A DNA stretch of 64,000 bases from an uncultured Dokdonia sp. Lineage in GTDB: Bacteria; Bacteroidota; Bacteroidia; Flavobacteriales; Flavobacteriaceae. Positions 5,309-62,046 of the stretch are shown piece by piece (within the stretch, counting starts at the first letter, position 1; the number at the start of each line of letters is the position of its first letter). The notes beneath the pieces are model-generated. The model did not search any database. It was not told where the DNA came from and was given only the letters and a program-made list of their open reading frames with translations. The stretch spans positions 434,001-498,000 of the forward strand of contig CANNDF010000001.1 of assembly GCA_947503305.1 (NCBI GenBank), given 5' to 3'. Position numbers and translations under genes: made by a program.

Positions 5309-6139
5309 ATGAAAAGTTGTTTTGAGGTAAAAGATCATTCTGTCACTGGAGAGTCATTTCGTTTAGAATATGACCAAGAACTTCATATGTATATAACGAC
5401 TCCAAAGCCTTCAGAAATCATATTGCCTAAGTATTATGCCAGTGAGGATTATATTTCTCATACAGATGGGAGAAGATCTTTTTTTGAAAAAGCATATCAT
5501 ATAGTAAAGCAAATTACGCTTTCGCGAAAGCAAAACTTACTTTTAAAATATCTTCCTTCTAGAGGACAACTTTTAGATATAGGAGCAGGAACTGGAGATT
5601 TTTTGGAATATGCGCTTAAAAAAGGTTGGAACGTTTCAGGAGTAGAACCTAGCGCTAAAGCAAGAGCACTTGCAAGACAAAAAAAGATAACTCTTATCGA
5701 TGATCTCTCTGATGATGCAACTCTCTATGATGCCATAACAATGTGGCATGTATTAGAACATGTGTATGATTTAGACAATCAAATTAAATGGATAAAAAAT
5801 CATCTACATCCTGACGGAGTTGTTTTTATAGCGGTTCCTAATTTTGAATGCTTAGATGCTCAGTATTATAAAACCGATTGGGCCGCTTTTGATGTGCCAA
5901 GGCATTTATATCACTTCTCAAAAAAATCAATAAGATCTCTTTTTGGAAAAAAGGGGATGAAAGTTATAGATATTGTCCCTATGAAATTTGATGCTTACTA
6001 TGTAAGCTTACTTTCTGAAAAGTATAAAACGGGGTCAATGAATTTTATAAAAGCTTTTTGGATGGGATTACGATCTAATCTTTCTGCAAAACGTACTGGA
6101 GCATACTCTTCTTTAATATATGTGATCAAACACACATAA
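5309..6139 (+). CDS. Class I SAM-dependent methyltransferase
   Basis: A 276-residue Rossmann-fold methyltransferase of the Methyltransf_23 kind. Motif I is seen as Leu-Asp90-Ile-Gly-Ala-Gly-Thr-Gly96, with the ribose-binding acidic residue Glu113 in Gly-Val-Glu-Pro. The post-motif Trp-His-Val-Leu-Glu-His is also present. The N-terminal ~80 residues look like the section found in Bacteroidota homologues next to mnmG. The substrate is unknown. Residues 71-74 (Leu-Ser-Arg-Lys) are encoded by a copy of the dispersed palindrome. The gene begins 27 bases after the right parS-like site and is probably co-transcribed with mnmG. Confidence 0.88.
   Translation: MKSCFEVKDHSVTGESFRLEYDQELHMYITTPKPSEIILPKYYASEDYISHTDGRRSFFEKAYHIVKQITLSRKQNLLLKYLPSRGQLLDIGAGTGDFLEYALKKGWNVSGVEPSAKARALARQKKITLIDDLSDDATLYDAITMWHVLEHVYDLDNQIKWIKNHLHPDGVVFIAVPNFECLDAQYYKTDWAAFDVPRHLYHFSKKSIRSLFGKKGMKVIDIVPMKFDAYYVSLLSEKYKTGSMNFIKAFWMGLRSNLSAKRTGAYSSLIYVIKHT
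5518..5531. repeat. Dispersed palindrome, exact core, inside a methyltransferase gene
   Basis: Exact GCTTTCGCGAAAGC with left flank TAC, matching the extended 20-base consensus at 18 positions. It is read in the Leu-Ser-Arg-Lys frame rather than the common AFAKA frame. Confidence 0.9.
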
Positions 6140-6336
6140 AACTTAAAATAAGCCTTTTTAAGCCCTTTTGGCAGTCTGCACAAAAGAAACACCTTGCCGA
6201 TTTTTATTTGTAATGCTACGGCGATTTAATGCGTTAGCCTTTTATAGAGATCATTTATATTAATACACCTATAAAATAAAGTAAATTTATACCAGAAGAT
6301 TTTTATGATTTTTAACACCAACTCTAGGAAACTTTT

Positions 6337-6344
6337 TATTTTTG
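6337..6344 (+). promoter_or_regulatory. Promoter -7 element for the OmpH-type gene
   Basis: TATTTTTG followed by C matches TAnnTTTG, 21 bases upstream of the start codon at 6365. The rest of the 225-base gap from 6140 holds no gene or RNA that I can recognise. Confidence 0.5.
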
Positions 6345-9957: not shown

Positions 9958-11550
9958 ATGAGATTACTTCATATATATACCCTGATAGGATGTTTATTGA
10001 TTTCTGCTTTTGTAAAAGCACAAGATACTCTTACATATGAGTCATTTAAAAATAAAGAGAAAGATCGTGTCACATTACAACGGGATACCATTACTATTGT
10101 AGACTCCATCCTTACCACCTCATTTGTAAATGAAGTTAATAGAGTAGAACTCAAAACACAGACCAAAGACTCTGTTGCATTTAGATTAAAAGACAACCCA
10201 CTTGCTGCGCGTATGGACTCATTATGGCGCAAAGAGCTTGCTCGTACAGACCTTTTTGACTCTATTACAAAAATGGTACATGACCATGACTACAAAGAAG
10301 AGGTCTATACAGATCTTCCGACAGATACACTCAAAAAAAGATTAGAAGCAATAAATGCAAGAACTCCTTTTAATGTAGCATATAATGCATCTCTTGAGAG
10401 TGTAATTAAAAGGTATCTGAAACGCCATAAACCAGCCATGGAACGGTTGATGGAAATAAGTGCGTTTTACTTTCCAATGTTTGAGGAAATGTTAGACAAA
10501 TATGATATTCCATTGGAAATGAAATACTTAGCTATTGTAGAATCGGCATTAAGACCACGAGCGCGATCAAGAGTAGGTGCAACAGGGCTTTGGCAATTTA
10601 TGTTTAGCACAGGAAAAATATATGGTCTGGATGTAAACTCATATGTAGATGAGCGTATGGACCCTATCATGGCTACCGAAGCTGCTTGCCAGTATCTTGC
10701 AAAACTCTATGAACTTTTTGGAGATTGGGATCTTGCACTAGCATCCTATAATTCTGGGCCTGGAAATGTTTCTAAGGCTATACGTCGTAGCGGAGGCTAT
10801 CAAAATTATTGGAATATAAGACAGAACCTACCTAGAGAAACAGCAGGATATGTTCCAGCTTTTCTTGCAACAATGTATCTTTTTGAATATGCAGATGAGC
10901 ATGGATATCAACCTAAAAAACCACCAGTAAATTATTTTGCTACAGATACGATTCATATCAAACAGTTGATTACTTTAGAACAAGTCTCACAAATTACAGG
11001 AGAACCCTTAGAAGTCATACAATTTTTAAATCCTTCTTATAAATTAGATATCATTCCCGTTGTAAAAAACGAACAGTATTATTTGAGGCTTCCTATAGAA
11101 AGTGTGGGAACCTTTGTGCAAAACGAGGAAGCAATTTATGCTTTCGCGAAAGCAGAATTAGACAAAAGAGAAAAACCATTACCTAAATTTACAGATGCGA
11201 GTTCGCAAGTGCGTTATCGAGTAAGAAGTGGTGATTATTTAGGAAAAATTGCAAACCGATACGGAGTACGTGTCAGCCAGATAAAAAAATGGAATAACTT
11301 ACGTTCCAATAATCTTAAAATAGGACAACGACTCATAATTTATCCTAGAAAACCTGTAACATCAACAGGAACATCCAGCACAAAGACTGTTATGCATAAT
11401 GGAAAAAAAACCTATACGGTGCGACAAGGAGATTCTTTGTGGAAGATTGCCAATAAGTTTCCAGGAGTAAGTGTGAAGAATATAAAAGTTTGGAACGATA
11501 TTAGTGGAGATAATGTAAAACCAGGAATGAAACTTGTCGTTTCCAAATGA
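9958..11550 (+). CDS. MltD-like lytic murein transglycosylase with two LysM domains
   Basis: A 530-residue exported enzyme that cleaves the MurNAc-GlcNAc bond of peptidoglycan. A signal peptide covers about residues 1-21. The SLT (GH23) domain spans ~145-290, with catalytic Glu195 in Val-Glu-Ser-Ala and the downstream Gly-Leu-Trp-Gln-Phe and Tyr-Asn-Ser-Gly-Pro-Gly signatures. Two peptidoglycan-binding LysM domains follow at ~420-462 and ~486-530. Residues 395-399 (AFAKA), in the linker before LysM1, are encoded by an exact copy of the dispersed palindrome. The next gene starts 30 bases downstream and is likely in the same operon. Confidence 0.95.
   Translation: MRLLHIYTLIGCLLISAFVKAQDTLTYESFKNKEKDRVTLQRDTITIVDSILTTSFVNEVNRVELKTQTKDSVAFRLKDNPLAARMDSLWRKELARTDLFDSITKMVHDHDYKEEVYTDLPTDTLKKRLEAINARTPFNVAYNASLESVIKRYLKRHKPAMERLMEISAFYFPMFEEMLDKYDIPLEMKYLAIVESALRPRARSRVGATGLWQFMFSTGKIYGLDVNSYVDERMDPIMATEAACQYLAKLYELFGDWDLALASYNSGPGNVSKAIRRSGGYQNYWNIRQNLPRETAGYVPAFLATMYLFEYADEHGYQPKKPPVNYFATDTIHIKQLITLEQVSQITGEPLEVIQFLNPSYKLDIIPVVKNEQYYLRLPIESVGTFVQNEEAIYAFAKAELDKREKPLPKFTDASSQVRYRVRSGDYLGKIANRYGVRVSQIKKWNNLRSNNLKIGQRLIIYPRKPVTSTGTSSTKTVMHNGKKTYTVRQGDSLWKIANKFPGVSVKNIKVWNDISGDNVKPGMKLVVSK
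11140..11153. repeat. Dispersed palindrome, exact core, inside the MltD-like gene
   Basis: Exact GCTTTCGCGAAAGC read as Ala-Phe-Ala-Lys-Ala (residues 395-399). It sits in the interdomain linker ahead of the first LysM domain, where an insertion would be tolerated. Confidence 0.92.
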
Positions 11551-13781: not shown

Positions 13782-15268
13782 TGTCTTTTAAGTCCTTTGC
13801 CGCCAAACTTTTTGCCGCTCATATCAAACGTAAAATAGATAGATGGGCATCAAACCCTATTAAAACTCAAGAAAAAGTTTTTAAAGCACTTATTGATGCA
13901 GCTCAATATACTGATTTTGGGAATGATCACCATTTTGAAGAGATCCATTCACATGCTGATTTTGTTCGTCATGTACCCATACGTGACTATGAAGCATTAC
14001 GACCTTACGTAGACCGTGTAGTCGAAGGAGCATCTAATGTTTTATGGCCAGGAAAGCCACTATATTTTGCAAAAACATCAGGAACAACTTCAGGAGCAAA
14101 ATATATCCCTCTAACGAAAGATAGCATGGGAACACATCCCGATACAGCACGTAATGCAATTCTTTGTTATATAGCAGAAACTGGAAAAACAGAGTTTGTA
14201 GATGGGAAAATGATTTTTTTACAAGGAAGTCCTGAGGTAGATGAAAAAAACGGAATTAAAGTAGGCAGACTTTCTGGAATTGTAGCTCACTATGTTCCTA
14301 ATTATCTTCAAAAAAACAGACTCCCTAGTTGGGAAACCAACTGTATTGACGATTGGGAAACTAAAGTAGATAAGATCGTTGATGAAACAGTAGATAAGGA
14401 CATGACAATCATCAGCGGTATTCCTTCATGGGTACAGATGTATTTTGAAAAACTGATAGATAAAACAGGAAAACCTGTAGGCGATCTCTTTAAAAACTTC
14501 CATCTTTTTATATATGGGGGTGTTAACTATGAACCTTATCGTGCTAAATTTGAAAACTTAATAGGGCGTCGTGTAGATAGTATTGAGCTCTATCCTGCAA
14601 GCGAGGGCTTTTTTGCTTTTCAAGATACGCAAACAGAAAAAGGGATGCTCCTTCAGTTGGATAGTGGGATCTTTTATGAATTTGTAAAAGCAGATACTTT
14701 CTTTGATGAAGATCGAGAGCGTATAACACTTAAAGATGTTGAGATAGGCATAAATTATGTCATTATTATATCTACGACAGCAGGTTTATGGGCATATAAC
14801 ATAGGTGATACAGTTATCTTTACATCAACCACTCCTTATCGTTTGATAGTATCAGGTCGTATTAAGCATTTTATATCGGCATTTGGAGAACATGTGATAG
14901 GTAAAGAGGTAGAACAAGCATTACAAGATGCAGTTTCAGGTACCGAAATACGTATTAATGAGTTTACTGTGGCGCCTCAAATTACTCCAGAACAAGGCTT
15001 ACCTTATCATGAATGGTTTATAGAATTTGAAAATGAAAGTGGAGATTTATCCGCTTTCGCGAAAGCAATAGACTCCTCATTACAATCTCAAAATAGTTAC
15101 TATTTTGATCTCATAGAAGGAAAAGTTTTACAACCTTTAAAAATCACCAAAGTTATTTCTGGAGGATTTAACGATTACATGAAATCCATAGGAAAATTAG
15201 GAGGGCAAAACAAAATTCCTCGCCTATCTAATGATCGTAAAATAGCAGATGCGTTAGTTACAGAATAA
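13781..15268 (+). CDS. GH3 auxin-responsive promoter-family acyl-adenylating ligase
   Basis: A 495-residue member of the GH3 branch of the ANL (adenylate-forming) superfamily. Plant GH3 enzymes conjugate amino acids to auxin or jasmonate; the bacterial substrate is unknown. The ATP-binding loop Thr99-Ser-Gly-Thr-Thr-Ser-Gly105 and a later Glu-Leu-Tyr-Pro-Ala-Ser-Glu-Gly motif are visible. Residues 425-429 (AFAKA) come from an exact palindrome copy. The start overlaps the stop of the M23 peptidase gene by one base, so they are translationally coupled. Confidence 0.9.
   Translation: MSFKSFAAKLFAAHIKRKIDRWASNPIKTQEKVFKALIDAAQYTDFGNDHHFEEIHSHADFVRHVPIRDYEALRPYVDRVVEGASNVLWPGKPLYFAKTSGTTSGAKYIPLTKDSMGTHPDTARNAILCYIAETGKTEFVDGKMIFLQGSPEVDEKNGIKVGRLSGIVAHYVPNYLQKNRLPSWETNCIDDWETKVDKIVDETVDKDMTIISGIPSWVQMYFEKLIDKTGKPVGDLFKNFHLFIYGGVNYEPYRAKFENLIGRRVDSIELYPASEGFFAFQDTQTEKGMLLQLDSGIFYEFVKADTFFDEDRERITLKDVEIGINYVIIISTTAGLWAYNIGDTVIFTSTTPYRLIVSGRIKHFISAFGEHVIGKEVEQALQDAVSGTEIRINEFTVAPQITPEQGLPYHEWFIEFENESGDLSAFAKAIDSSLQSQNSYYFDLIEGKVLQPLKITKVISGGFNDYMKSIGKLGGQNKIPRLSNDRKIADALVTE
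15053..15066. repeat. Dispersed palindrome, exact core, inside the GH3-family gene
   Basis: Exact GCTTTCGCGAAAGC read as Ala-Phe-Ala-Lys-Ala (residues 425-429), following Ser and leading into Ile-Asp-Ser. Confidence 0.92.
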
Positions 15269-19171: not shown

Positions 19172-20215
19172 ATGAAGAAAGACGCAAAAATATATATTGC
19201 AGGGCATCGGGGTCTCGTAGGTAGTGCCATAAAAAAGGAGTTAGAAAAAAAAGGATATACAAATCTTGTATACCGTACTCATAAAGAACTTGACCTAACA
19301 AGTACAGTCGCTGTAAGTGATTTTTTTGAAGTAGAAAAACCAGAATATGTATTTCTAGCTGCTGCAAAAGTAGGAGGAATTATTGCAAATAATACCTACA
19401 GAGCAGATTTTATCTATAAAAACCTGATGATTCAAAATAATGTAATCCATCAGAGTTACGTACATGGAGTAGATAAATTACTTTTTTTAGGAAGTACCTG
19501 TATTTATCCTAAAGAAGCTCCGCAACCTATGCCTGAAGATAGCCTTCTTACGGGTCCTCTTGAATATACAAATGAACCGTATGCTATTGCAAAAATTGCT
19601 GGGATCAAAATGTGCGAGAGCTATAATATACAATATGGGACTAATTTTCTTTCGGTAATGCCTACAAACCTATATGGATATAATGACAATTTTGATTTAG
19701 AAAAATCGCATGTGTTGCCTGCATTAATTCGTAAGATACATTTAGCAAAGCTTCTTTCGGAAGGAAAAAAAGATGAGGTGATGAAGGATCTTGGGGTTTC
19801 TGCTTTTGCGAAAGCAGAAGAAATCTTAAATACATATGGAGTGTCAAAAGATGCTGTAGAAATATGGGGAACAGGGGCACCCCGAAGAGAATTTTTATGG
19901 AGTCAGGATATGGCAAATGCTTGTGTATTTATAATGGAGAATAGAGATTTTGATGACGTAATACCTGGGGGAGATATTAAAAACACGCATATTAATATAG
20001 GTACAGGAGAAGATATTTCTATAAAAGAACTTGCACATATTATCCAGAAAGAAATAGGATTTACAGGAGTACTTACATTTAACACATCAAAACCAGATGG
20101 AACCCTACGCAAGCTCACAGATGTTTCTAAGTTACACGGATTAGGATGGAAGCACACAATTCATTTGGAAGAAGGTGTTGAAAAACTCTATGCATGGTAC
20201 CTAGATAATAAGTAG
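19172..20215 (+). CDS. fcl: GDP-L-fucose synthase
   Basis: A 347-residue epimerase/reductase that makes GDP-L-fucose from the Gmd product. The dinucleotide motif Gly11-His-Arg-Gly-Leu-Val-Gly17 and the catalytic Tyr-Ala-Ile-Ala-Lys are clear. The protein is longer than the E. coli enzyme (321 residues) because of an insertion around residues 200-230. That insertion contains AFAKA (211-215), encoded by a one-mismatch copy of the palindrome. The next gene starts right after the stop codon. Confidence 0.96.
19802..19815. repeat. Dispersed palindrome, one mismatch, inside fcl
   Basis: GCTTTTGCGAAAGC differs from the core at one base (C to T), a silent change within Ala-Phe-Ala-Lys-Ala, residues 211-215. 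It lies in an insertion relative to shorter GDP-fucose synthases. Confidence 0.8.
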
Positions 20216-22944: not shown

Positions 22945-22958
22945 GCTTTCGCGAAAGC
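22945..22958. repeat. Dispersed palindrome, exact core, between two polysaccharide genes
   Basis: Exact GCTTTCGCGAAAGC directly after the TAA stop at 22942-22944, followed by GTAAAA. With flanks it matches the extended 20-base palindrome at 19 positions. The same right flank GCGTAAAA occurs at the copy near 52000. Confidence 0.92.
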
Positions 22959-28235: not shown

Positions 28236-29459
28236 TTGAAAAAGAAAACACATATTACCCTTATCGGTCTTAATTTTTATCCAGAGAGTACAGCAATTGG
28301 ACTATATTCTACACAGCTTGCTCAATATCTAGAGGAACAAGACATTCAGCTAGATGTGATCACGGCATTTCCCTATTACCCTCAGTGGAAAATAGCCCCA
28401 GAATACAAAGACAAAAAAAAATATTTAAAAGAACAATTAGGAAGTATTAACCTCTATAGATATAAGCAATACGTTCCAGAAAGGCCAACCTTTGCAAAGC
28501 GTATTTTACATATTTTGGATTTTACATGGGGTTCTTTCCGGAATCTTTGGAAAATACAAAAATGTGATATTGTGATTTCTATTGTTCCCTTTACAAGTGC
28601 TACTCTTTTGGGGCTTATTCAAAAAAGACGGTTTAAAGCAAAATCTTGGATACATATTCAGGATTTTGAGTTTGATGCTGCATTTCAATCAGGACTTACA
28701 ACTGCAGGAGAACAAAAAGGCGGTATTGTCTATTCGTTATTGATGGCCATTGAAAAATCACTTTTTTCTAGAGCTGACATGGTAAGTACGATAAGTCATA
28801 TGATGCTTGAAAAATTAAAAGATAAAACAACAGCCCCCACTTATTTTTTACCTAATTGGATAGATGATAAGAAGATAGATCCCGCTTTCGCGAAAGCGCA
28901 CCCACACTTAAACTCATCGAAGTTTAAAATTTTATATTCTGGAAATATTGGAGATAAACAAGATTGGTCCTTTTTTATGAGATTACTTCATAAACTAGAT
29001 TTTTCTATCTATGAAGTTATTTTAGTAGGTGATGGAGCTATGAGAGCTCAAATAGAAAAAGATATTATACCATATAATGGTGTCAAACTGCATCCGCCAG
29101 TGCCTTATGAAGAATTATCAGATCTACTTTGTAGTGCAGATGTACATGTGCTTTTTCAAAAACCAGAAGTAGTAGATACAGTAATGCCCTCTAAAATTCT
29201 TGGGATGATGGCTAGTTCAAAACCATCTATTATTACGGGACATCCAAAATCTGAAGTAGCACAAGCAATGACTATTTCTGAAGGAGGTTACTATAGCTCT
29301 GACACAGAAATAGACACTGTTATAATGCAATTAGACACATTATCTCAGAACAAAGATCTAGCCATGGAAATGGGCTCAAAAGCAAGAACATATGTAATTT
29401 CTCATTTTGCAAAAAATCAGATTCTTTCTCGATTTTTAGAAGCCTTAAAACAATTATAG
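28236..29459 (+). CDS. WcaI-type glycosyltransferase
   Basis: A 407-residue GT-B glycosyltransferase resembling WcaI of colanic acid synthesis. The N-terminus Leu-Ile-Gly-Leu-Asn-Phe-Tyr-Pro-Glu-Ser-Thr is typical of that group, as is Asp-Phe-Glu-Phe-Asp-Ala in the middle. The start is TTG at 28236; no ATG is close. Residues 217-221 (AFAKA) come from an exact palindrome copy in the interdomain region. The acceptor is probably a fucose-containing intermediate, by analogy only. Confidence 0.88.
   Translation: MKKKTHITLIGLNFYPESTAIGLYSTQLAQYLEEQDIQLDVITAFPYYPQWKIAPEYKDKKKYLKEQLGSINLYRYKQYVPERPTFAKRILHILDFTWGSFRNLWKIQKCDIVISIVPFTSATLLGLIQKRRFKAKSWIHIQDFEFDAAFQSGLTTAGEQKGGIVYSLLMAIEKSLFSRADMVSTISHMMLEKLKDKTTAPTYFLPNWIDDKKIDPAFAKAHPHLNSSKFKILYSGNIGDKQDWSFFMRLLHKLDFSIYEVILVGDGAMRAQIEKDIIPYNGVKLHPPVPYEELSDLLCSADVHVLFQKPEVVDTVMPSKILGMMASSKPSIITGHPKSEVAQAMTISEGGYYSSDTEIDTVIMQLDTLSQNKDLAMEMGSKARTYVISHFAKNQILSRFLEALKQL
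28884..28897. repeat. Dispersed palindrome, exact core, inside the WcaI-type gene
   Basis: Exact GCTTTCGCGAAAGC read as Ala-Phe-Ala-Lys-Ala (residues 217-221), between the two Rossmann domains of the glycosyltransferase. Confidence 0.92.
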
Positions 29460-33956: not shown

Positions 33957-35300
33957 TTACTCTAATTTAGAAATAAACTGCTTTAGTTTACCACGTTTAC
34001 TACGATCCATACGATCTACTTTTTCAAAAATCACATTTAATCCATCTTCTAGATATGTATACGTAGCTTTTATGATTTTTTCTTTTTCATTAGTAGTAAG
34101 TTCACGTTGAGAAGTATAAATAATTTTAAAAGTATTCAACAATGTTTGTTCAATAACAAATTCTTGAACATTTCCATCTTCTTCAATAACACTTTTAGTA
34201 ACATAATAAAAGGTAAGCCCAGGCACCACTTTTCCGCTAGGAAGATGCGCAATATCATTAGTGCGACCTATGAGTTTTTCTAGGATGGGTTTTTGGGAAG
34301 TACTTTTACTAGAGAGGATGCCTATATCTCCTATATCGTATCGTATAAATGGATGTGCTTTATTATATAATGATGTGACGACTATACGTCCCGATTCCCC
34401 ATTAAGAATAGGTTTGTTATTCTTATCAAGAATTTCTATAAAGAGTAATTCACTATCTACCACAAACTGACCTTCTTTGTTTTGAAAAGCAATAAGACCT
34501 AGTTCTGAAGCTCCATATTCATTTATTACTGGGATGCCCAATTGTTCTTCCATTAATAGTCTATCACTTTCAAAAAGCATTTCACTTGTCACGATACATG
34601 CTTTAAGGCTAGGACATATAGTGGTAAGCACAATGTTTTTTCTTTGAAGAAATTTTGCAAAGAGCACAATACTACTTGTATATCCATTGAGGTAATCAAA
34701 GGAGGTTTTTTGGAACTTTTTAAGTGCTTTTTCTAGCTCCGTATCATTTAAATTAAAAATAGGAAACCGATATCGGTTTCCTAACCAATCTTTTAAACGT
34801 TCTTTTTGATAACCTATAGGATCAAGAGGAATTCCATAAAACCGCGCTTGTTTTGAAGTATTTATATCAAGATGAAACCATGAATAACGTTCTTGAAAGC
34901 TTGCCCACGAAAGAGCGTGAGTTATTTTATCTTTTGCAAAAATAAAAGGATGACCAGATGAACCAGATGTTTTATTGAGGTATACATTACGACGTGTATA
35001 TCCTTGTGAAAGCCTATCTGAAAGAGGTTGTTGTAAGTCGGTTTTTGTTAAAACAGGAAGGTCCTCCCATGCCTTGGATACAAGTTCTTTTGTTTTTTTT
35101 TGATAAAAAGGGTTTGATGTTTTATGAAAAGAAACAATTTCAGATTTTTTTTGCTCAATATAATCGAGATATTGATTTTCAGAGAGAGATCGGATACGGG
35201 ATAATTCTGCTTTCGCGAAAGCGATATCATACCCTTTAAGCTGTAATGTCCAATCAAATAAATTCACGAGTCGAATATTAGTAAGCCAATGTACAAACAT
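33957..35300 (-). CDS. CapK/phenylacetate-CoA ligase-like adenylating enzyme
   Basis: A 447-residue member of the AMP-forming ligase superfamily. The ATP loop Lys-Thr-Ser-Gly-Ser-Ser-Gly-His-Pro and the later Glu-Tyr-Gly-Ala-Ser-Glu motif are clear. Homologues called CapK occur in capsule clusters. The true substrate is unknown. Residues 27-31 (AFAKA) come from an exact palindrome copy. It is the only minus-strand gene at the cluster end and is divergent from purD. Confidence 0.85.
   Translation of the reverse strand: MFVHWLTNIRLVNLFDWTLQLKGYDIAFAKAELSRIRSLSENQYLDYIEQKKSEIVSFHKTSNPFYQKKTKELVSKAWEDLPVLTKTDLQQPLSDRLSQGYTRRNVYLNKTSGSSGHPFIFAKDKITHALSWASFQERYSWFHLDINTSKQARFYGIPLDPIGYQKERLKDWLGNRYRFPIFNLNDTELEKALKKFQKTSFDYLNGYTSSIVLFAKFLQRKNIVLTTICPSLKACIVTSEMLFESDRLLMEEQLGIPVINEYGASELGLIAFQNKEGQFVVDSELLFIEILDKNNKPILNGESGRIVVTSLYNKAHPFIRYDIGDIGILSSKSTSQKPILEKLIGRTNDIAHLPSGKVVPGLTFYYVTKSVIEEDGNVQEFVIEQTLLNTFKIIYTSQRELTTNEKEKIIKATYTYLEDGLNVIFEKVDRMDRSKRGKLKQFISKLE
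35209..35222. repeat. Dispersed palindrome, exact core, inside the CapK-like gene
   Basis: Exact GCTTTCGCGAAAGC, in a minus-strand gene, again read as Ala-Phe-Ala-Lys-Ala (residues 27-31) near the N-terminus. Confidence 0.92.
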
Positions 35301-38636: not shown

Positions 38637-39656
38637 ATGAAACAACCTGACCACATTCTTATCATCCGCTTATCGGCAATGGGAGATGTAGCAATGGTGA
38701 TGCCTGTTGTATACGCTTTTGCGAAAGCGTACCCAGAAACAAAAATCAGTGTTCTTTCTAAACCCTTTTTCAGGCCTATAATAGAAACTGTTCCTAATGT
38801 GCATTTTATTGCCGCCGAAACCAAAGGCAAACACAAAGGAATTCTAGGAATATGGAAGCTGTCAAAAACATTAAAAGCACAAGGCATTACCCATGTAGCA
38901 GATATTCATAATGTATTACGATCTAAAATCTTAACTACTTTTTTAAGCGTGCCACATGCAAAAATTGATAAAGGTAGAGCTGCAAAGAAAGCACTTACCA
39001 GAACTCATAATAAAATAGTCAAACCTCTTCCCACAACAATACAAAGGTATGTTGAGGTATTTAATTCACTAGGATTTAAGGTTCTGAAACCTGAAGTGCT
39101 TCCTAAACCTAAGCCTAAAAAAGAGATAAGCAAACTCATAATAAATTCTGAGATTAAAAAAATAGGAATTGCTCCTTTTGCCGCACACAAAGGCAAACAA
39201 TATCCATTAGAATTAATGCAAGTCGTCATACAACGATTGTCTCAGAATAATGATATCCAATTATATTTATTTGGAGCACCTTCAGAAAAGACGCAATTAG
39301 AAGAACTATCGAAAGAGAGTCTTAATTGTACAATTGTAGCGGGTCTGTTAAAATTTGATGAAGAAATAAATTTAATTGCTCAATTAGACATCATGCTTTC
39401 TATGGATAGTGGTAATGGTCATCTCTCAGCAATGTATGGAGTGCCTACAGTTACACTCTGGGGAGTGACACATCCTTATGCAGGGTTTGCCCCATTTAAA
39501 CAAGAAGAATATTGCTTGCTTTCAGACCGTGATAAATATCCATTAATTCCGACCTCTGTGTATGGTAATAAATTGCCCGAAAGCTATAAAGAAGTAATGC
39601 ACACAATTACTGTAAAAAAGGTTGTAGATACTATAAGATCGATACTGTATAAATAA
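38637..39656 (+). CDS. Family 9 glycosyltransferase (heptosyltransferase-like)
   Basis: A 339-residue GT-B enzyme of the heptosyltransferase family, which adds a sugar to the lipid A core. The N-terminal Ile-Arg-Leu-Ser-Ala-Met-Gly-Asp motif and the C-terminal Asp-Ser-Gly-Asn-Gly-His-Leu and Val-Thr-Leu-Trp-Gly segments are typical. Residues 27-31 (AFAKA) are encoded by a palindrome copy whose flanks match the extended 20-base form at 19 positions. The donor sugar is not certain. Confidence 0.93.
   Translation: MKQPDHILIIRLSAMGDVAMVMPVVYAFAKAYPETKISVLSKPFFRPIIETVPNVHFIAAETKGKHKGILGIWKLSKTLKAQGITHVADIHNVLRSKILTTFLSVPHAKIDKGRAAKKALTRTHNKIVKPLPTTIQRYVEVFNSLGFKVLKPEVLPKPKPKKEISKLIINSEIKKIGIAPFAAHKGKQYPLELMQVVIQRLSQNNDIQLYLFGAPSEKTQLEELSKESLNCTIVAGLLKFDEEINLIAQLDIMLSMDSGNGHLSAMYGVPTVTLWGVTHPYAGFAPFKQEEYCLLSDRDKYPLIPTSVYGNKLPESYKEVMHTITVKKVVDTIRSILYK
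38715..38728. repeat. Dispersed palindrome, one mismatch, inside the GT9 gene
   Basis: GCTTTTGCGAAAGC differs from the core at one base, silently. With flanks TAC and GTA it matches the extended palindrome at 19 of 20 positions, so both arms are kept even within a gene. It is read as Tyr-Ala-Phe-Ala-Lys-Ala-Tyr. Confidence 0.88.
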
Positions 39657-42229: not shown

Positions 42230-43285
42230 CTATACATCATCATAATCTACAACTAGCTTTGATGAGGTAGGATGTGCTTGGCAGGTAAGAACAAGGCCTT
42301 CAGCTACTTCGCTATCTGTTAAGATCTGATTTTTACGCATAGTCGCTGTACCTTCTGTTATTCGGGCAATACAACTACTACAAACACCTCCTTGACATGA
42401 GTGTGGTGCATCAATGTTTTGATCAAGCGCTGCATCTAGAATAACTTCATCTTGGTCCATAGTAATCTCAAATTCTTCATCATCTACAAGAATTTTGAGT
42501 TGAGATTTTCCATCTAGGTTTTCTGTTATTTCAGTTTCTTCCTCTGAAGTAGTGAAGAGCTCAAAGTGAATATCAGATGGAGATACGTTATTTGTTGTAA
42601 GAACAGTAGTTACCTCTTTAATCATTGCTTCTGGACCACAAAGATAATGAGCGTCAAAGTCGTATGAAGCATATTTGTTTTTTACTACAAAGTTTACTGT
42701 AGATTTTAAAATACGGCCAAAATGCGCACCATCTTCTCGAGATTGACTATAAATAAATTCAATAGAAAACCGATCTTTATACTGGTCTCTAAGTGCTAAT
42801 AAGGCATCTCTAAAAATCGTTTCTTTAGGTCTTTTGTTACCATAAACCAACACAAAATTACTCTCAGAAGATTGTTCAAGTACCGTTTGTATCATACTCA
42901 TAACTGGAGTAATTCCAGATCCTGCGGCAAATGCGAGGTAGGTTTTTTTTGCTTTCGCGAAAGTAGAATCTATCACAAATCTCCCTTCAGGAGGTGCTAC
43001 TTCTAGAATATCACCTTCTTTTAAATTATGGTTTGCATACACAGAAAAAGTACCATCCTCTACTTCTTTTACAGTAACTCTAAGAATGTCACTTCCCTGA
43101 GAAGAACAGATCGAATATGCACGACGCACTTCATCTCCATCTAGTACCGTTTTTAAAGTAATATACTGCCCAGCTTGATAGGTAAATGTTTCTTTTAAAG
43201 TTGATGGTATTTGAAAACCTATAGAAATAGCCTGGGGGGTCTCGCGAGTAATAGAATGTATCGCTAGTTTATGAAAATCTGACAT
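42230..43285 (-). CDS. PaaE-like ferredoxin/flavin oxidoreductase
   Basis: A 351-residue three-domain electron carrier. The N-terminal FAD domain has Arg-Ala-Tyr-Ser-Ile-Cys-Ser, the middle NAD(P) domain has Ala-Gly-Ser-Gly-Ile-Thr-Pro, and the C-terminal plant-type ferredoxin domain has Cys-x4-Cys-x2-Cys with a fourth Cys near the end. This is the layout of the phenylacetyl-CoA epoxidase reductase PaaE, but no paaABCD genes are nearby. The start at 43285 is preferred since a longer frame to 43312 runs through the promoter motif. Residues 108-112 (TFAKA) come from a palindrome copy. Confidence 0.9.
   Translation of the reverse strand: MSDFHKLAIHSITRETPQAISIGFQIPSTLKETFTYQAGQYITLKTVLDGDEVRRAYSICSSQGSDILRVTVKEVEDGTFSVYANHNLKEGDILEVAPPEGRFVIDSTFAKAKKTYLAFAAGSGITPVMSMIQTVLEQSSESNFVLVYGNKRPKETIFRDALLALRDQYKDRFSIEFIYSQSREDGAHFGRILKSTVNFVVKNKYASYDFDAHYLCGPEAMIKEVTTVLTTNNVSPSDIHFELFTTSEEETEITENLDGKSQLKILVDDEEFEITMDQDEVILDAALDQNIDAPHSCQGGVCSSCIARITEGTATMRKNQILTDSEVAEGLVLTCQAHPTSSKLVVDYDDV
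42951..42964. repeat. Dispersed palindrome, one mismatch, inside the PaaE-like gene
   Basis: GCTTTCGCGAAAGT differs only in the last base. In this minus-strand gene it is read as Thr-Phe-Ala-Lys-Ala (residues 108-112), in the loop joining the FAD and NAD(P) domains. Confidence 0.85.
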
Positions 43286-45773: not shown

Positions 45774-48377
45774 TTGAAATTACATATAAGATATATCTGT
45801 TTAGTAGTAGTAGTGGCGTTGTTTTTTACAGGCTGTTCACGGAAGAAAAATTCTTTCATCAGTCGTAATTTCCATGCAGTTACTACAGAGTACAATACGT
45901 TATATAATGGAGGAGTTGCTTTAGATCAAGGGCAACAAACATTAATTTCTTCATTTAATGATAATTATTGGGATGTCCTTCCTATCGAAAGAATTGCATT
46001 TACAGATGATATAAGCCTTAGTCTAGGCGATGAAAACAGGGATCCTAATTTTCTAAAAGCTGAAGAAAAAGCCATAAAAGCAATTCAACGCCACTCTATG
46101 AAAATAGATGGGCAAGAGAATAACCCTCAGATAGACGAAGCTTTTATTCTTCTTGGAAAGGCTAGATATTATGATCAACGTTTTGTCCCTGCACTGGAAG
46201 CTTTTAATTATATCCTTGCGTACTATCCTAAAAGTAATAACATAGTACAGGCAAAAATTTGGAAAGAAAAAGCAAATATTCGTCTTGAGAATAATGAAGT
46301 CGCAATTGAGAACCTTCTTAAGATATTCAGGGTAGAAGATAAGATTAAAGCTCAAGACCAAGCAGATGCCTATGCAATTTTAGCACAAGCATATCTTAAT
46401 CTTAAGCATAAAGACACTGCACTTACCTATATAAAACAAGCTACAGAACTTACTAGAAAGAATGAAGAACGTGGGCGTTATAACTTTATAAAAGGACAGT
46501 TATATAATAATTTGGGATTCAAAGACAGTGCAAACTTTGCATTTGATGAGGTGATTGCATTAAACAGAAAAATTCCAAGAAAGTATCTTATAAATGCGCA
46601 TTTGGAAAAGGCACGCAACTTTGATTATGAAAATGGAGATACACTTGTGCTTTTTGAATTATTGGAAGAACTACAAGAAAATAGAGAGAACAGACCCTTT
46701 TTAGATAAGATCTATTATGCAAAAGCAGAGTTTTATATGAAGACGAATCAGGTAGATTCTGCTCTAGCAAATTATAACAAATCGTTACGACAACAATCTA
46801 CTGATAGCTATCTTAATTCTAGAGATTACTTAGCACTAGCAGAGTATAATTTTGAAGAGGCAAAGTATCAGATAGCAGGATCATATTACGATAGTGTAAT
46901 GGGGCAATTAAATGATCGTACAAGAGAGTTTAGACTCATTAGAAAGAAGAGAGAGAACCTTACGGATGTTATCAAATACGAAAACCTATCACAACGTGAT
47001 GATAGTATCATGAGATTAGTCAGGCTTTCTGAAGATGAACAACGTGCTTTTTTTGAAGATTACATTGCAAAAATTAAAGAAAAAGAGGTTCAAGATTCTA
47101 TTGCTCGTGTAGATGAAATTCGTAATAATGAATTTTATAAGTCTAATAAAAAGAAAGGAACAGCTTTTGGAAATACAAATGCTTCAAATTCTTTTAGTTC
47201 CAGATCAGGAAGTAATAGTCAGGCCCAAGTAGGTGAGTTCTATTTTTATAATAAAACTGCTGTTGCATTAGGAAGGCAAGCTTTTCAAAGACGATGGGGT
47301 AAAAGAGGGTCAGAAGATGGCTGGCGTATATCTGCAAGGCAAAATATACCTCTTAATTCAAGTACACTGCCTTTATCATTATCTGAAGATGCTGTAGAAG
47401 ACACTTCACTTACTGTAGATGATTATATAGCTCAAATCCCAAAAGAAGAAAAGGAAATAGATAGCTTAAAAAGAGAACGTGATTTTGCATATTTTCAGCT
47501 AGGACTTATCTATAAAGAAAAGTTTAAAGAATATCCATTGGCATCAGACCGTTTAGAAAAACTGCTCACATATACCCCAGAAGAGCGACTCATACTTCCT
47601 GCAAAATACAATTTATATCAGATCTATAATGAGATGGACGCTTCCGCCAAAGCGAACACTTATATGACAGATATTACGACAAACTATCCAGACTCTCGCT
47701 ATGCATCTATACTTCTTAATCCAGAGAAAGAATTGGAACAAGATGCCGCATCGCCAGAAGCTATTTATAATGGTTTATTCAAAGAGTTTCAAAATCAAAA
47801 CTATGGAAGTCTATTAACAAGTCTAGATCAACGTATTGATCAATTTTATGGAGATCCATTTTTACCAAAGTTTGAATTATTAAAAGCAACTACACTAGGA
47901 CGCTACAAAGGATATGAAGCCTATAAGACAGCACTAAACTATGTAGCACTTACTTATCCTCGTTCTGATGAAGGAAAAAAAGCTCAAGATATCTTGGCAG
48001 GAGCAATCCCGTCAATGAAGTTTAATGGGTTTGACGACGAAGCCGTATCAGTAAGTTGGAAAATACTATATACATTTGATAATTCTGATATAGAAAACGC
48101 AACAACTTTACGTGAACAATTAGATGCTGCATTTGAAAAATTAGGATTTACAAATTTTGTGACATCATACGACATCTATGATGACAAACAGTCTCTTGTT
48201 GTAATCCATTATTTGGATAGTAAATCCCAAGCAGGGGGCCTTGTAGAATTACTTGCTGTAAATAAAGAAATAGAAGCCCCTATTACAATGGCAAATACGA
48301 TTATAGCCTCAGAGAACTATAAAATTGTACAGCTACATAAAAACCTAGCCACCTATAAGGAACAAGAAGCAAAATAA
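45774..48377 (+). CDS. sprE: Type IX secretion lipoprotein PorW/SprE
   Basis: An 867-residue TPR lipoprotein. The start is TTG at 45774, giving a signal peptide with lipobox Phe-Thr-Gly-Cys21. Tetratricopeptide-like repeats fill the body (seen around 120-380 and 560-700), and the C-terminal ~100 residues form a separate domain. Length, lipobox and position before bactofilin and the ATP synthase genes match SprE of Flavobacterium johnsoniae and PorW of Porphyromonas. There it is needed for type IX secretion and gliding motility. The segment ASAKA (623-627) may be a decayed palindrome copy. Confidence 0.92.
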   Translation: MKLHIRYICLVVVVALFFTGCSRKKNSFISRNFHAVTTEYNTLYNGGVALDQGQQTLISSFNDNYWDVLPIERIAFTDDISLSLGDENRDPNFLKAEEKAIKAIQRHSMKIDGQENNPQIDEAFILLGKARYYDQRFVPALEAFNYILAYYPKSNNIVQAKIWKEKANIRLENNEVAIENLLKIFRVEDKIKAQDQADAYAILAQAYLNLKHKDTALTYIKQATELTRKNEERGRYNFIKGQLYNNLGFKDSANFAFDEVIALNRKIPRKYLINAHLEKARNFDYENGDTLVLFELLEELQENRENRPFLDKIYYAKAEFYMKTNQVDSALANYNKSLRQQSTDSYLNSRDYLALAEYNFEEAKYQIAGSYYDSVMGQLNDRTREFRLIRKKRENLTDVIKYENLSQRDDSIMRLVRLSEDEQRAFFEDYIAKIKEKEVQDSIARVDEIRNNEFYKSNKKKGTAFGNTNASNSFSSRSGSNSQAQVGEFYFYNKTAVALGRQAFQRRWGKRGSEDGWRISARQNIPLNSSTLPLSLSEDAVEDTSLTVDDYIAQIPKEEKEIDSLKRERDFAYFQLGLIYKEKFKEYPLASDRLEKLLTYTPEERLILPAKYNLYQIYNEMDASAKANTYMTDITTNYPDSRYASILLNPEKELEQDAASPEAIYNGLFKEFQNQNYGSLLTSLDQRIDQFYGDPFLPKFELLKATTLGRYKGYEAYKTALNYVALTYPRSDEGKKAQDILAGAIPSMKFNGFDDEAVSVSWKILYTFDNSDIENATTLREQLDAAFEKLGFTNFVTSYDIYDDKQSLVVIHYLDSKSQAGGLVELLAVNKEIEAPITMANTIIASENYKIVQLHKNLATYKEQEAK
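47640..47653. repeat. Dispersed palindrome, decayed copy (two mismatches), inside sprE
   Basis: GCTTCCGCCAAAGC differs from the core at two positions but keeps the frame, reading Ala-Ser-Ala-Lys-Ala (residues 623-627). It could be a mutated old copy or a chance resemblance. Confidence 0.5.
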
Positions 48378-51994: not shown

Positions 51995-52008
51995 ACTTTC
52001 GCGAAAGC
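51995..52008. repeat. Dispersed palindrome, one mismatch, between atpH and atpA
   Basis: ACTTTCGCGAAAGC differs in the first base. It begins 4 bases after the atpH stop and ends 16 bases before the atpA start, with the same GTAAAA right flank as the copy at 22945. It can form a hairpin in the operon mRNA but has no T tract. Confidence 0.88.
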
Positions 52009-53608: not shown

Positions 53609-53622
53609 GCTTTCGCGAAAGC
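53609..53622. repeat. Dispersed palindrome, exact core, between atpA and atpG
   Basis: Exact GCTTTCGCGAAAGC starting 7 bases after the atpA stop. With flanks TAC and GGA it matches the extended 20-base palindrome at 19 positions. Together with the copy before atpA it brackets that gene. Confidence 0.92.
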
Positions 53623-58665: not shown

Positions 58666-60045
58666 ATGAAAAAAAATACATACATTTTAATATTTTTTCT
58701 ATGCGTAAGTATGCTTTCGCAACAATATATTTATGCACAAGACACCACCCCTTTTGCAGATGAAAATATAGACGATTTAGGAGATGTGTCTGATGAATTT
58801 CAAGAAGCATTTTTTGAAGCATTAAAACAAAAAGGCATTGAAAACTACGAACGTGCAATTACATACTTAAATGAATGTATTGTGATGGAACCATCACTTT
58901 CTATCCTTTATTTTGAACGAGGAAAAAACTACAACCTGCTTAAAAACTATGATAGAGCAACAGAAGACTTTATAAAGACCCTAGAACTTCAACCAAATCA
59001 AGAGTCTGTACTAGAGTTACTTTATGAAGTATACTATCGCAATCGGGATTATAAAAAAGCAGAAGACATTGTATTAAAACTGGTGACTTTTGACATTCAG
59101 TATAAAGAAGATCTAGCGAGATTATATATAGCAACACAAAAATATGATCAAGCACTGGATATGCTAGACGAGTTAGATAATCAAAAAGGATCAGATATAT
59201 ATAGAAATCAATTAAGAGATAGAATATATACATTAACAGGCGATACAAATAGACAAACAGAAGCTATTGAAAAAAAGATAGCAAGTAATCCACAAGAACA
59301 GTCTGAATATCTTAAACTTATCTATTTATATAGCGAACAGGGAGCTACAAAAAAAGCATATGACATCGCATTAAAATTACAAGAAGTAAATCCGGAAGCC
59401 GAAGAAGTACAACTCGCATTATATAAATTCTACCTTGAAGATGGTAAGATAGAAGAAGCGATAACATCAATGCAGAAAGCATTAAAAAGCAATAAAATCC
59501 CAAATAAAGCTAAGCATAGAGTTCTTAATGATTTTTTATTATTTGTAAATAAAAATGAGCAATACGAACCCCAATTGGAGAGTGCGATAGCCATATTTGA
59601 CTCTCAAGCGGGAGACACAAAAATATACCAAGAGCTGTCAAATTATTATATAGGAAAAGGTTTAAAAAACAAAGCATTGCCTTACTTAAGAAAGGCATTA
59701 AATAAAGACCCCGAAAACCTAGAACTTATTAAAAACACACTATTATTACAATTAGATGCTGGAGATAATAATGCTGCTGCAAAAATTGCTTCTGAGGCAT
59801 TAGAACTATATCCATCACAACCTTTACTATATCTTACATATGGAGCGGCACTTAACAATCAATCCAAGCATAGAGAGGCAATCGAGCAATTAGAAATAGG
59901 GATAGATTATATTATCGATGATGTACGAATGGAAGCCGATTTTTATCAGCAATTAAGTAATGCTTATACGGCTAGTGGGGATACGATTAAGGGGCAACAG
60001 TATCTGGAGAAGTCACAAACCTTAAAATCCCAGATTGACAAATGA
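58666..60045 (+). CDS. Tetratricopeptide-repeat periplasmic protein
   Basis: A 459-residue exported protein. The start is set at ATG 58666 rather than a TTG two codons upstream. A signal peptide of about 25 residues ends at Tyr-Ala-Gln-Asp. About ten TPR units follow from residue 50 onward, with Tyr-Asn-Leu-Leu and Ala-Leu-Pro-Tyr-Leu-Arg-Lys-Ala patterns. It overlaps the DUF4292 lipoprotein gene by 4 bases. A role as an envelope assembly adaptor is inferred. Confidence 0.88.
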   Translation: MKKNTYILIFFLCVSMLSQQYIYAQDTTPFADENIDDLGDVSDEFQEAFFEALKQKGIENYERAITYLNECIVMEPSLSILYFERGKNYNLLKNYDRATEDFIKTLELQPNQESVLELLYEVYYRNRDYKKAEDIVLKLVTFDIQYKEDLARLYIATQKYDQALDMLDELDNQKGSDIYRNQLRDRIYTLTGDTNRQTEAIEKKIASNPQEQSEYLKLIYLYSEQGATKKAYDIALKLQEVNPEAEEVQLALYKFYLEDGKIEEAITSMQKALKSNKIPNKAKHRVLNDFLLFVNKNEQYEPQLESAIAIFDSQAGDTKIYQELSNYYIGKGLKNKALPYLRKALNKDPENLELIKNTLLLQLDAGDNNAAAKIASEALELYPSQPLLYLTYGAALNNQSKHREAIEQLEIGIDYIIDDVRMEADFYQQLSNAYTASGDTIKGQQYLEKSQTLKSQIDK

Positions 60046-60827
60046 AGTATCTATCCATCATTAGTATAGTCTTATTATTTGTAGGTTGTAAGGGCACAAA
60101 AAAAGTAGTAAATACCGCTACAGTAGATGACATAGAAACGACACGCCTTATAGAAAATTATTATGAAAACTCTTTTGACTTTACGACACTAGTTGCAAGA
60201 ACGAAAGTAAAATATCAAGACAAAAAGACGAGACAAACAGTCACCGTTAGTATCCGTATTGAAAAGGATAAAAAAATATGGATGAGCGCTTCTGTTTTGG
60301 GAATTACAGGAGCAAAAGCATTAATAACGCCAGATAAGGTGTCTTTTTATGAAAAAATAAATAGAACTTACTTTGATGGAGACTTCACTTTTTTAAGTCA
60401 ATATTTTGGGGTTCAAATGAATTTTGATCAACTCCAACGACTACTTATAGGCCAGACAGTATACGACCTTAGAAAAGGAACATATGAAGTAGACAAACAA
60501 GAAAGTGTATATAAGATAATACCCAAACAACAGTTAGATATCCTTAAGTTGTTTTTTTATATGGAACCTCAACAATTTTTATTAAAAAAACAGCAAGTCG
60601 TTCAGCCTAAAGACAAGCTTTTTATGGATGTGGATTATATAAACCATCAATCTGTAAATGGCAAACCTTTTCCTCAAGAGATTCAAATTAAAGCTGTAGA
60701 TAATAGTAAAGGAGATCAAACAATGATTAATATAGAATATCGGAATATAGATATAAATGTTCCAGTAAGATTTCCATTTTCGATTCCGTCCAGTTACAAA
60801 GAAGTTACACTAGATGAAATTCGTTAA
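60042..60827 (+). CDS. DUF4292-family lipoprotein
   Basis: A 261-residue lipoprotein (Val-Gly-Cys16). The mature part is beta-rich with Val-Ser-Ile-Arg-Ile-Glu-Lys-Asp and Lys-Ile-Trp-Met-Ser-Ala-Ser, a fold reminiscent of LolA/LolB lipoprotein carriers. I recognise the DUF4292 family. The function is unproven. It overlaps both neighbours (4 and 14 bases), so it is part of a tight envelope operon. Confidence 0.88.
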   Translation: MKYLSIISIVLLFVGCKGTKKVVNTATVDDIETTRLIENYYENSFDFTTLVARTKVKYQDKKTRQTVTVSIRIEKDKKIWMSASVLGITGAKALITPDKVSFYEKINRTYFDGDFTFLSQYFGVQMNFDQLQRLLIGQTVYDLRKGTYEVDKQESVYKIIPKQQLDILKLFFYMEPQQFLLKKQQVVQPKDKLFMDVDYINHQSVNGKPFPQEIQIKAVDNSKGDQTMINIEYRNIDINVPVRFPFSIPSSYKEVTLDEIR

Positions 60828-62046
60828 GAAGACACATATTCTTTTGGTTATAATGCTACTTTTTGTAGGAAGCATACAAGAAGTATGTGGACAAACCTCT
60901 ACGCGAAAACAGTTAGAAAAACGGAGAGCAGCTTTAAAAGCAGAAATGCAACAATTAAATCGCTTGCGCGAAAGCAATAAAAAGAAAGAGATCTCTCTTT
61001 TAACACAAGTTGAAGATCTTGATCAACAAATTCAAATCCGTTCTGACTTAATTAAAGTGACTAACAGACAAGCAAATTTACTTACCAGAGAAATAGATGA
61101 AAACCTCAATAAAGTAGAAAACCTGAGAGAAGAGTTACAAGATCTTAAAGCAGATTATGCGACGATGATTCAAAAGTCATACAAAAGTAAAAGTGGACAG
61201 AGTAAAGTCATGTTTTTACTTTCAAGTGAAAGCTTTAAACAAGCCTATAAGCGTATACAGTATATGAAACAATACGCAAATTATAGGAAGAAACAAGGGG
61301 AGCAAATACAAGAACGAACAGCATTAATACAACAAGTAAACACTGATCTTATTAAGCAAAAAGCAGATAAAGAAAATCTTATTGCTGAAAATAGAATTGC
61401 AAAGGAACAGCTGGATAATGAAAAGCTTGCGCAAGATGAATTGATTAAACAAGTGCGTAAAAAATCCAGCACCTATGCATCTCAAATCAAAAAGAAACAA
61501 AAAGAAACTGACCGTATAGATCGTCAAATAGATAAAATTATTGCAGATGCAATTGCGGCAAGTAATGCTAAAGCCGGGAAAGCAAAAACCAATAAAGAAT
61601 TTGCATTAACCCCCGAAGAGGTAGCCCTAGCTTCAAATTTTGCCTCAAATAAAGGACGTTTAATATGGCCCGTAGAGCGAGGTAGAGTATCAAGACGTTA
61701 TGGAAGGTCTAAGCACCCTACGCTTCCTAATATTACAACGTATAGCAGTGGGGTAGAGATAGAAACATCTCCCAATGCTATTGCAAGAGCGGTTTTTAAG
61801 GGAGAAGTTATTGCAATACAAGATGTACAAGGAGGAAATTTGGTCGTATATATACGTCACGGTAATTACATAACAGTTTATTACAATCTCAAGAATATTA
61901 AGGTGAAAAAGGGAGACCAAGTCGCCCTAAAACAACCCATAGCAGAAGTAGCTCAAAATGCTTTTAGTGGTAAGACCATCCTTAAATTCTTAGTAAGAAA
62001 AGATAATACAAAACTTAACCCTGCAGATTGGGTCTTAAATATGTAA
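60814..62046 (+). CDS. EnvC-like murein hydrolase activator with a degenerate LytM domain
   Basis: A 410-residue exported protein: signal peptide (~1-27), long coiled coil (~30-235) and C-terminal LytM/M23 fold (~285-410). The catalytic residues seem lost. The HxxxD position reads Ser-Ser-Gly-Val-Glu and the HxH position reads Leu-Lys-Phe. This is the state of E. coli EnvC, which activates amidases at the septum instead of cutting peptidoglycan. A palindrome relative lies near the start of the coiled coil (residues 50-54). Confidence 0.9.
   Translation: MKFVKKTHILLVIMLLFVGSIQEVCGQTSTRKQLEKRRAALKAEMQQLNRLRESNKKKEISLLTQVEDLDQQIQIRSDLIKVTNRQANLLTREIDENLNKVENLREELQDLKADYATMIQKSYKSKSGQSKVMFLLSSESFKQAYKRIQYMKQYANYRKKQGEQIQERTALIQQVNTDLIKQKADKENLIAENRIAKEQLDNEKLAQDELIKQVRKKSSTYASQIKKKQKETDRIDRQIDKIIADAIAASNAKAGKAKTNKEFALTPEEVALASNFASNKGRLIWPVERGRVSRRYGRSKHPTLPNITTYSSGVEIETSPNAIARAVFKGEVIAIQDVQGGNLVVYIRHGNYITVYYNLKNIKVKKGDQVALKQPIAEVAQNAFSGKTILKFLVRKDNTKLNPADWVLNM
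60962..60975. repeat. Dispersed palindrome, one mismatch, inside the EnvC-like gene
   Basis: GCTTGCGCGAAAGC differs at one base. It is read in a third frame as Leu-Arg-Glu-Ser (residues 51-54) within the coiled coil. The flanks do not match the extended palindrome, so this one could be coincidental. Confidence 0.6.

Follow-up and report, generated by a model that had tools for sequence, protein, structure and literature searches.

A dispersed 14-base palindrome of Dokdonia genomes and phage contigs is a candidate recognition site for a DNA-binding protein

The palindrome GCTTTCGCGAAAGC is dispersed through a stretch of 64,000 nucleotides from an uncultured Dokdonia sp. (C1:434001-498000 of a 4,264,867-base genome; hereafter the whole stretch is the window and the genome is the own genome). 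We found 13 members of the palindrome family in the window, seven exact, five with one mismatch and one with two, where dinucleotide shuffles of the window hold a mean of 0.12 copies and a maximum of 1. An earlier sequence-only reading had listed the same 13 copies at the same positions and judged them far above chance; both statements were reproduced, and its description of a palindrome scattered through unrelated genes, behaving like the HIP1 palindrome of cyanobacteria, was borne out as well. It had also described several copies as perfect 20-base palindromes. The window holds none, the best being three that match TACGCTTTCGCGAAAGCGTA at 19 of 20 positions; the exact 20-mer does occur elsewhere, with seven occurrences in a 400-kb sample of the own genome and 19 in an equal length of G006, a complete genome of the same genus. 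The copies lie as follows among the open reading frames (ORFs) of the window, domains being called by Pfam at a threshold of E 1e-5:

5518..5531, exact copy, in a methyltransferase-domain ORF (5309-6139, + strand)
11140..11153, exact copy, in frame as Ala-Phe-Ala-Lys-Ala (AFAKA) in an SLT/LysM ORF (9958-11550, +)
15053..15066, exact copy, read in frame by a GH3-family ORF (13781-15268, +)
19802..19815, one-mismatch copy GCTTTTGCGAAAGC, a synonymous change that keeps AFAKA, in an epimerase-family ORF (19172-20215, +)
22945..22958, exact copy, intergenic, starting immediately behind the stop codon that closes ORF 21520-22944
28884..28897, exact copy, read in frame by a glycosyltransferase ORF (28236-29459, +)
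35209..35222, exact copy, within ORF 33957-35300 (-), for which Pfam gave no match at E 1e-5
38715..38728, one-mismatch copy, read in frame by an ORF of glycosyltransferase family 9 (38637-39656, +)
42951..42964, one-mismatch copy, within ORF 42230-43312 (-), whose domains are FAD/NAD-binding and 2Fe-2S
47640..47653, two-mismatch copy GCTTCCGCCAAAGC, in a variable loop of a TPR protein (ORF 45774-48377, +)
51995..52008, one-mismatch copy, in the gap between atpH (F1 delta) and atpA
53609..53622, exact copy, in the gap between atpA and atpG
58713..58726, a fourteenth, decayed copy GCTTTCGCAACAAT with four mismatches, found by comparison with relatives
60962..60975, one-mismatch copy, within the ORF of an M23 peptidase (60814-62046, +)

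The atpA/atpG gap also holds a copy in ten other Dokdonia genomes, six of them with two mismatches, and in g210; this label, like g11 and g13, denotes another genus, the relatives' own genus being taken as Dokdonia. Among the relatives listed, the place aligned to 58713 is exact in nine and deviates by a single base in another.

The whole-genome count that the sequence-only reading had proposed gives 570 exact copies of GCTTTCGCGAAAGC in the 4.26 Mb of the own genome and none of the control, the motif pattern written backwards, so the abundance lies far above chance. All 17 sampled Dokdonia relatives hold hundreds of copies (369-905), and density in the genus is 0.13-0.27 copies per kb, about one per 4-7 kb. 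Two further genera reach the hundreds, g11 (578, 609 and 664 in three genomes) and g210 (408 in one genome); the other sampled Bacteroidota hold 0-19. A search of 59 genomes, the own included, found a copy in 20: the own genome, 17 of the same genus, one g11 (578) and one g13 (6). The remaining 39 (16 of the same family, 23 of the same order) held none. In separate scans at least one copy was found in 80 of 397 genomes of the family, with hundreds in only six (G000, G012, the three g11 and the one g210) and 1-19 in the other 74, for part of which positions were listed, and in 22 of 395 genomes of the phylum, the own included, of which eight lie outside the family with one copy each. We also looked for other dialects of such a signal and rejected the idea: from each of 80 loci (4.2-20.9 kb; Flavobacteriaceae and related records) we took the two commonest 10-, 12- and 14-base palindromes if seen at least three times, and these were AT-rich or a run of N.

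The carrier genera do not form a single block in protein trees. Both in a tree of atpH, atpA and atpG (99 taxa) and in one of the TPR protein (84 taxa), g11 stands apart from a group of Dokdonia, g210 and Leeuwenhoekiella, which has support of 0.844 and 0.997; the Leeuwenhoekiella locus (L067) holds no copy. A large group containing g11 has support of 0.998 in the atp tree, and the placement of g11 in the TPR tree has only 0.782. Given this position of g11, the system that reads the palindrome may either have moved between lineages or be old and have suffered many losses. A first tree, of atpB and atpF, was dropped because both genes are mosaic. Within the genus these two genes (window 49480-51441; L319 of G005, L316 of G015, L320 of G017) look mosaic in that atpB of three species is 46-52% identical to the own and atpA 95-97%, which suggests that the membrane part of the ATP synthase was exchanged within the genus.

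The motif has a fixed core, TTTCGCGAAA, and GC arms, one of which may be lost. In 400 kb of G006 we found 136 cores, 99 with two GC arms, 37 with one and none without an arm; 400 kb of the own genome gave 61, of which 53 have two arms, eight have one and again none lacks both. In both samples TTCGCGAA is always part of TTTCGCGAAA, and shorter parts of the motif are found almost solely inside it. An RNA hairpin or terminator was rejected on the grounds that the bases of the loop do not vary and that an arm may be missing. The copies are also mostly exact. The own 400 kb holds 53 exact, 11 one-mismatch and seven two-mismatch copies, whereas ten shuffles of the palindrome, equal to it in composition, had no exact copy there and at most one within one mismatch. 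The corresponding counts (exact/one/two mismatches) are 63/16/9 in 544 kb of the own genome including the window, 124/17/42 in 520 kb of G006, 14/9/4 in 120 kb of g210, 14/2/0 in 60 kb of g11 and 16/9/1 in an island of G116 described below, so that exact copies outnumber one-mismatch copies in the pooled samples, where shuffled palindromes average 0:0. The flanks show a weak TTAC...GTAA preference, and nothing more is shared beyond the palindrome.

Outside the large gaps, copies are evenly spaced. Among the first 100 copies listed in the own genome, 93 gaps are below 20 kb, with a coefficient of variation (CV) of 0.46; only three of these are below 2 kb against about 25 expected, and none of 20,000 simulations was equally low. 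The 66 gaps of G016 have a CV of 0.61, two being below 1 kb against 16.5 expected, and a separate test of 57 gaps concurs. The same 100 copies leave six larger gaps of 22-76 kb, and with large gaps counted the evenness over the own 400 kb is no better than chance (CV 1.1 for exact copies). Placement relative to the replication origin and terminus was checked in the complete G006: 20 stretches round the chromosome hold 1-8 copies each, 99 in total (Fano factor 0.61), with no origin-to-terminus trend and no restriction to a macrodomain. Intergenic copies make up 24 of 63 in the own genome (39 are coding), 43 of 124 in G006, six of 14 in g210 and seven of 14 in g11, which is 3.4-4.7 times the non-coding share in the four samples, by a split that rests on simple ORF calls. 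The intergenic copy nearest to a start codon lies 16 bases away in G006, and two in the own genome lie closer (6 and 12 bases).

Inside genes the palindrome rewrites proteins, placing AFAKA in signal-peptide-like starts and in loops. In-gene copies favour the AFAKA frame (49 of 81 in G006, 19 of 39 in the own genome), and the pentapeptide occurs 28 times in 165,020 ORF residues of the own genome and 52 times in 155,196 of G006; there is none in 450,862 residues of 80 noncarrier loci, which cover the atp neighbourhood only and so differ in gene content. Copies near the N-terminus yield signal-peptide-like starts ending in AFAKAQ (L009:18284-19417, L390:10012-11229), and 7 of the 28 own and 10 of the 52 G006 occurrences fall in the first 30 residues. 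The loop of the TPR protein (window 47640) carries the exact site in Dokdonia G003, G010, G012, G016 and G017, in the g210 genome G230 and in the three g11; in other Dokdonia it deviates at one or two bases, G011, G014 and G015 differ in sequence at this place, and noncarriers have different residues. The idea that all copies are ancestral codons conserved in distant homologues thus fails, since the noncarrier homologues compared lack these codons. With the tree positions of g11, the TPR-loop site may be either a parallel gain in a permissive loop or an old inheritance.

Copies change mainly by substitution, as counted in about 120 kb of synteny among G006, G008 and G009. From G006 to G009, 23 of 25 copies aligned, 21 identical and two with a one-base difference; in the reverse direction 23 of 27 aligned, 20 identical and three with one base changed. 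From G006 to G008, 23 of 25 aligned, all identical, and from G008 to G006, 27 of 29 aligned, 23 identical, three differing by one base and one facing unrelated sequence. At larger distances most alignments over non-matching places are gapped (102 of the 107 comparisons between carriers in which the site has over two mismatches), and one intergenic copy of G004 faces a 20-base gap in several relatives, so that an occasional short insertion may also occur.

We searched for machinery that might accompany the motif. The type II/IV pilus ATPase family T2SSE scores over the cut-off in 14 of 60 genomes, eight of 22 carriers and six of 38 others; the single-contig carriers G006, G008, G009, G016 and G230 have matches below the cut-off only, so that neither this family nor the customary uptake pilus can be a requirement. 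The C5-methylase family PF00145 is matched in 33 of the 60 genomes (10 of 22 carriers, 23 of 38 others), with no match in the own genome nor, among others, in the single-contig G004, G006, G009 and G230. It was rejected as a requirement, 12 of 22 carriers having no match. The hexamer TCGCGA, which the sequence-only reading had proposed as a methylation or restriction signal, occurs outside the 14-mer 19 times in the own 400 kb (38 expected from base composition) and 66 times in that of G006 (44 expected), and 8 and 37 of these, respectively, lie in one-armed copies. Being neither enriched nor strongly avoided outside the motif, it does not fit a restriction-modification site; this and the carriers that lack a C5-methylase speak against the proposal in its simple form. 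Neither T2SSE nor PF00145, nor RecC (see below), follows the distribution of the motif.

The palindrome is also found in phage contigs. A scan of IMG/VR gave at least 120 stretches with the motif, compared with 74 for a control pattern matched in composition; many of these stretches, GC-rich with single matches, are plausibly chance. Twenty loci were chosen, and 17 viral records among them, whose hosts are presumed, carry 1-5 exact copies each. Six AT-rich contigs were tested for phage genes: L206 has a portal and a major head protein, L204 and L155 a tape measure protein, L173 an integrase, L159 a baseplate hub and L172 a family of unknown function only. Three phage pairs have an exact copy at the same place, L163/L166 (75% identity), L142/L222 (68%) and L155/L226 (69%), and in L155/L173 (83%) the site differs by one base. 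The nearest named relatives of two phage proteins are from Cellulophaga phages (35% and 44% identity), and the records of these two distantly related phages hold no copy at two or fewer mismatches. A search for portal proteins in the 22 carriers, meant to reach prophages irrespective of the palindrome, found two loci, one over the cut-off, each shorter than 4 kb and with no site at one or fewer mismatches.

In several low-copy genomes, which belong to other genera, the copies are clustered: all 16 of G116 lie within 78 kb, 12 of 17 of G091 within 40 kb, and 18 of 19 of G326 in one stretch of 31 kb and another of 62 kb, those of G184 and G368 being more scattered. A pair of copies exactly 933 bases apart is common to G118, G127, G141, G254, G116, G326 and G200; in G116, G118 and G254 it lies inside an ORF of 405 residues, which in G116 is an outer-membrane efflux protein adjoining an AcrB-family transporter. 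The G116 island also encodes an E1-E2 ATPase; it stretches from the efflux genes to a large serine recombinase adjoining ftsZ and ftsA. Such efflux-gene islands look like transfers from carriers, with a cargo that, read by eye from the residues, would be metal resistance. The palindrome marks the DNA of carrier genera and therefore might help to trace gene transfer, a use to which these islands point. The G116 island itself (L389-L393, C3 about 31.5-115.8 kb, about 84 kb) contains 16 exact copies, many small proteins that look membrane-anchored and unusual large ORFs. The genus was taken as Dokdonia because G006 has a sodium-pump rhodopsin gene (match to PDB 7q36/4xtl, E about 1e-180, two visible differences from 7q36), the matched protein being KR2 of Dokdonia eikasta, formerly Krokinobacter; in the own genome a search for rhodopsin gave no match.

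A protein site needed at intervals on resident DNA is what the exactness, the even spacing, the fixed two-fold core and the persistence in phages point to. We therefore favour, at a probability of roughly 40%, a highly iterated recognition site for a dimeric DNA-binding protein in intracellular DNA handling. The candidate protein would bind double-stranded DNA, reading the core TTTCGCGAAA together with at least one GC(G) arm. A site useful about once per 4-7 kb on long-resident DNA (the chromosome, adapted islands, temperate phages) would arise by point mutation, would be kept exact by selection and would seldom be repeated near an existing copy. Its likeliest job would be a Chi-like "self" signal to a recombination or degradation machine, for which a palindrome would work in either direction; alternatively, the site may anchor a nucleoid protein. 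In a bolder form, which we regard as doubtful, a two-way 14-base "self" mark, set by selection about every 5 kb on resident DNA, could pass from one lineage to another; its dimeric reader would decide the fate of DNA in the cell and would have entered at least two separate lineages, and temperate phages would evolve the mark so as to pass as self.

Several observations weigh against a DNA-handling site of this kind. No RecC family member was found in 80 genomes, so RecC was rejected as the reader and a RecBCD-Chi system is out; known Chi sites are moreover 5-8 bases long, non-palindromic and directional. Two-armed copies, being palindromic, have no orientation, and the 37 one-armed G006 sites show no orientation preference (17 versus 20), nor do they when divided by the sign of the GC skew (11:12 and 6:8, by a rough skew assignment). 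No binding protein was found, and no systematic comparison of gene content between carriers and noncarriers was made. The phage contigs are a set selected for holding a copy, and two further homologous places in them are not conserved (L222-8297/L142, 70%; L164/L195, 64%). Of the large gaps in the own genome, one of 76 kb (C1 747-824 kb) has no copy and carries genes for a phage-type integrase and for an ATPase of the TraG type, and one of 63 kb (C1 326-390 kb) has a single mismatched copy and a phage-type integrase; the other four span 22-33 kb. The site is therefore not strictly needed for residence, and newly arrived DNA seems to begin without copies. These two site-poor regions correspond to L400-L403 (C1:745-825 kb) and L017-L020 (C1:320-400 kb), the latter including a 1151-residue ORF (C1:326604-330059) with no Pfam match.

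We ranked intracellular DNA handling first, a drive by DNA uptake second and a methylation-linked site of the HIP1 type third; uptake and a chromosome-organising site had both been among the options of the sequence-only reading. Under the uptake explanation, competent cells would prefer DNA bearing the palindrome, and biased uptake with recombination would spread it as a molecular drive. Uptake sequences are described as evenly spaced, over-represented in non-coding DNA and gained by point mutation (PMC1939737, excerpt), all of which holds here, and the two site-poor own regions carry mobile-element genes; Riemerella, described as a member of the Flavobacteriaceae without pilus homologues, is reported to be naturally competent (PMC8459023, excerpt), so that the missing pilus ATPase leaves room for uptake. 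However, uptake sequences are not palindromes in the account of the same excerpt (PMC1939737), the pilus ATPase is over the cut-off in few carriers, phage copies that stay exact at 68-75% identity are no obvious product of uptake drive, and among the matches listed in the open-access literature on transformation none mentions Dokdonia; we consider uptake possible and on balance unlikely. A methylation origin would make the palindrome the product of an orphan methyltransferase and methylation-directed repair. Its variable part, the outer GC arm, recalls the variable outer bases of HIP1, but PF00145 is matched in under half of the carriers and not in the own genome, the inner TCGCGA is unenriched outside the motif, and the motif is longer and sparser than HIP1 (PMC4390886, excerpt), which makes this explanation improbable.

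A narrower version of the favoured DNA-handling site is an anchor for an abundant architectural protein that organises the nucleoid about every 5 kb. The motif is palindromic and even round the chromosome, and Noc-type sites (ATTTCCCGGGAAAT) are likewise 14-base palindromes of similar look; yet G006 lacks the origin-to-terminus pattern of Noc, SlmA and MatP sites, the TTTC/GAAA half-site spacing is unlike that of Noc and ParB sites, and phage genomes of tens of kb would have no obvious benefit from such an anchor. We hold this version to be rather unlikely. The sequence-only reading had further suggested a minimal mobile element like the Rickettsia palindromic elements, which, as in REP/RAYT-like repeats, would be copied into new places. 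Many identical copies in genes and gaps fit that idea, as does the G004 copy opposite a gap. Against it, the differences among G006, G008 and G009 are single substitutions, bar one with unrelated flanks, the TPR copy aligns codon by codon and mostly ungapped to diverged codons in relatives, and the flanks share no more than a weak base preference; a mobile element is very improbable. Whichever of intracellular selection, uptake drive or methylation is at work, the palindrome offers a test bed for why iterated repeats fill genomes.

We found CTTTCGCGAAAG nowhere in the open-access literature, which leaves most subscription journals outside its coverage, and TTTCGCGAAA in open-access papers only under titles that, judged as such, are unrelated; the matches listed there include HIP1 of cyanobacteria and, for Bacteroidota, no iterated signal comparable in length and regularity. 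Among known systems, the sites of Noc, SlmA, MatP and ParB are palindromes of 12-16 bases bound by dimers. The palindrome studied here has many more copies, no macrodomain pattern in G006 and another half-site spacing. The uptake signal sequences and DNA uptake sequences (USS/DUS) of Pasteurellaceae and Neisseriaceae occur in hundreds or more copies per genome. They resemble our motif in even spacing, non-coding excess and origin by point mutation (PMC1939737, excerpt), and differ from it in that ours is a palindrome and also occurs in phage contigs, some of which keep it at a conserved place, and that five single-contig carriers have no pilus ATPase family member over the cut-off. Chi has a density of about 0.2 per kb in Escherichia coli, shared by phages that lack recombinases (PMC3784561, excerpt), which is close to the 0.13-0.27 per kb of Dokdonia, likewise genome-wide and likewise in phages, Chi being present in temperate phages at a density like that of the host; our motif is nevertheless palindromic and 12-14 bases long and occurs without RecC, and no strand preference was seen for its one-armed copies. 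HIP1 (GCGATCGC) is the nearest in behaviour, an iterated palindrome found genome-wide in genes and gaps, most variable in its outer bases (PMC4390886, excerpt) and of unsettled function. The present palindrome has 14 bases against the eight of HIP1 and recurs once per 4-7 kb, where HIP1 recurs about once per kb (same excerpt); its sequence differs from GCGATCGC and its phylum is not that of the cyanobacteria; it is, furthermore, evenly spaced, present in phages, found at high copy number in three of the sampled genera and with no C5 methylase as a requirement.

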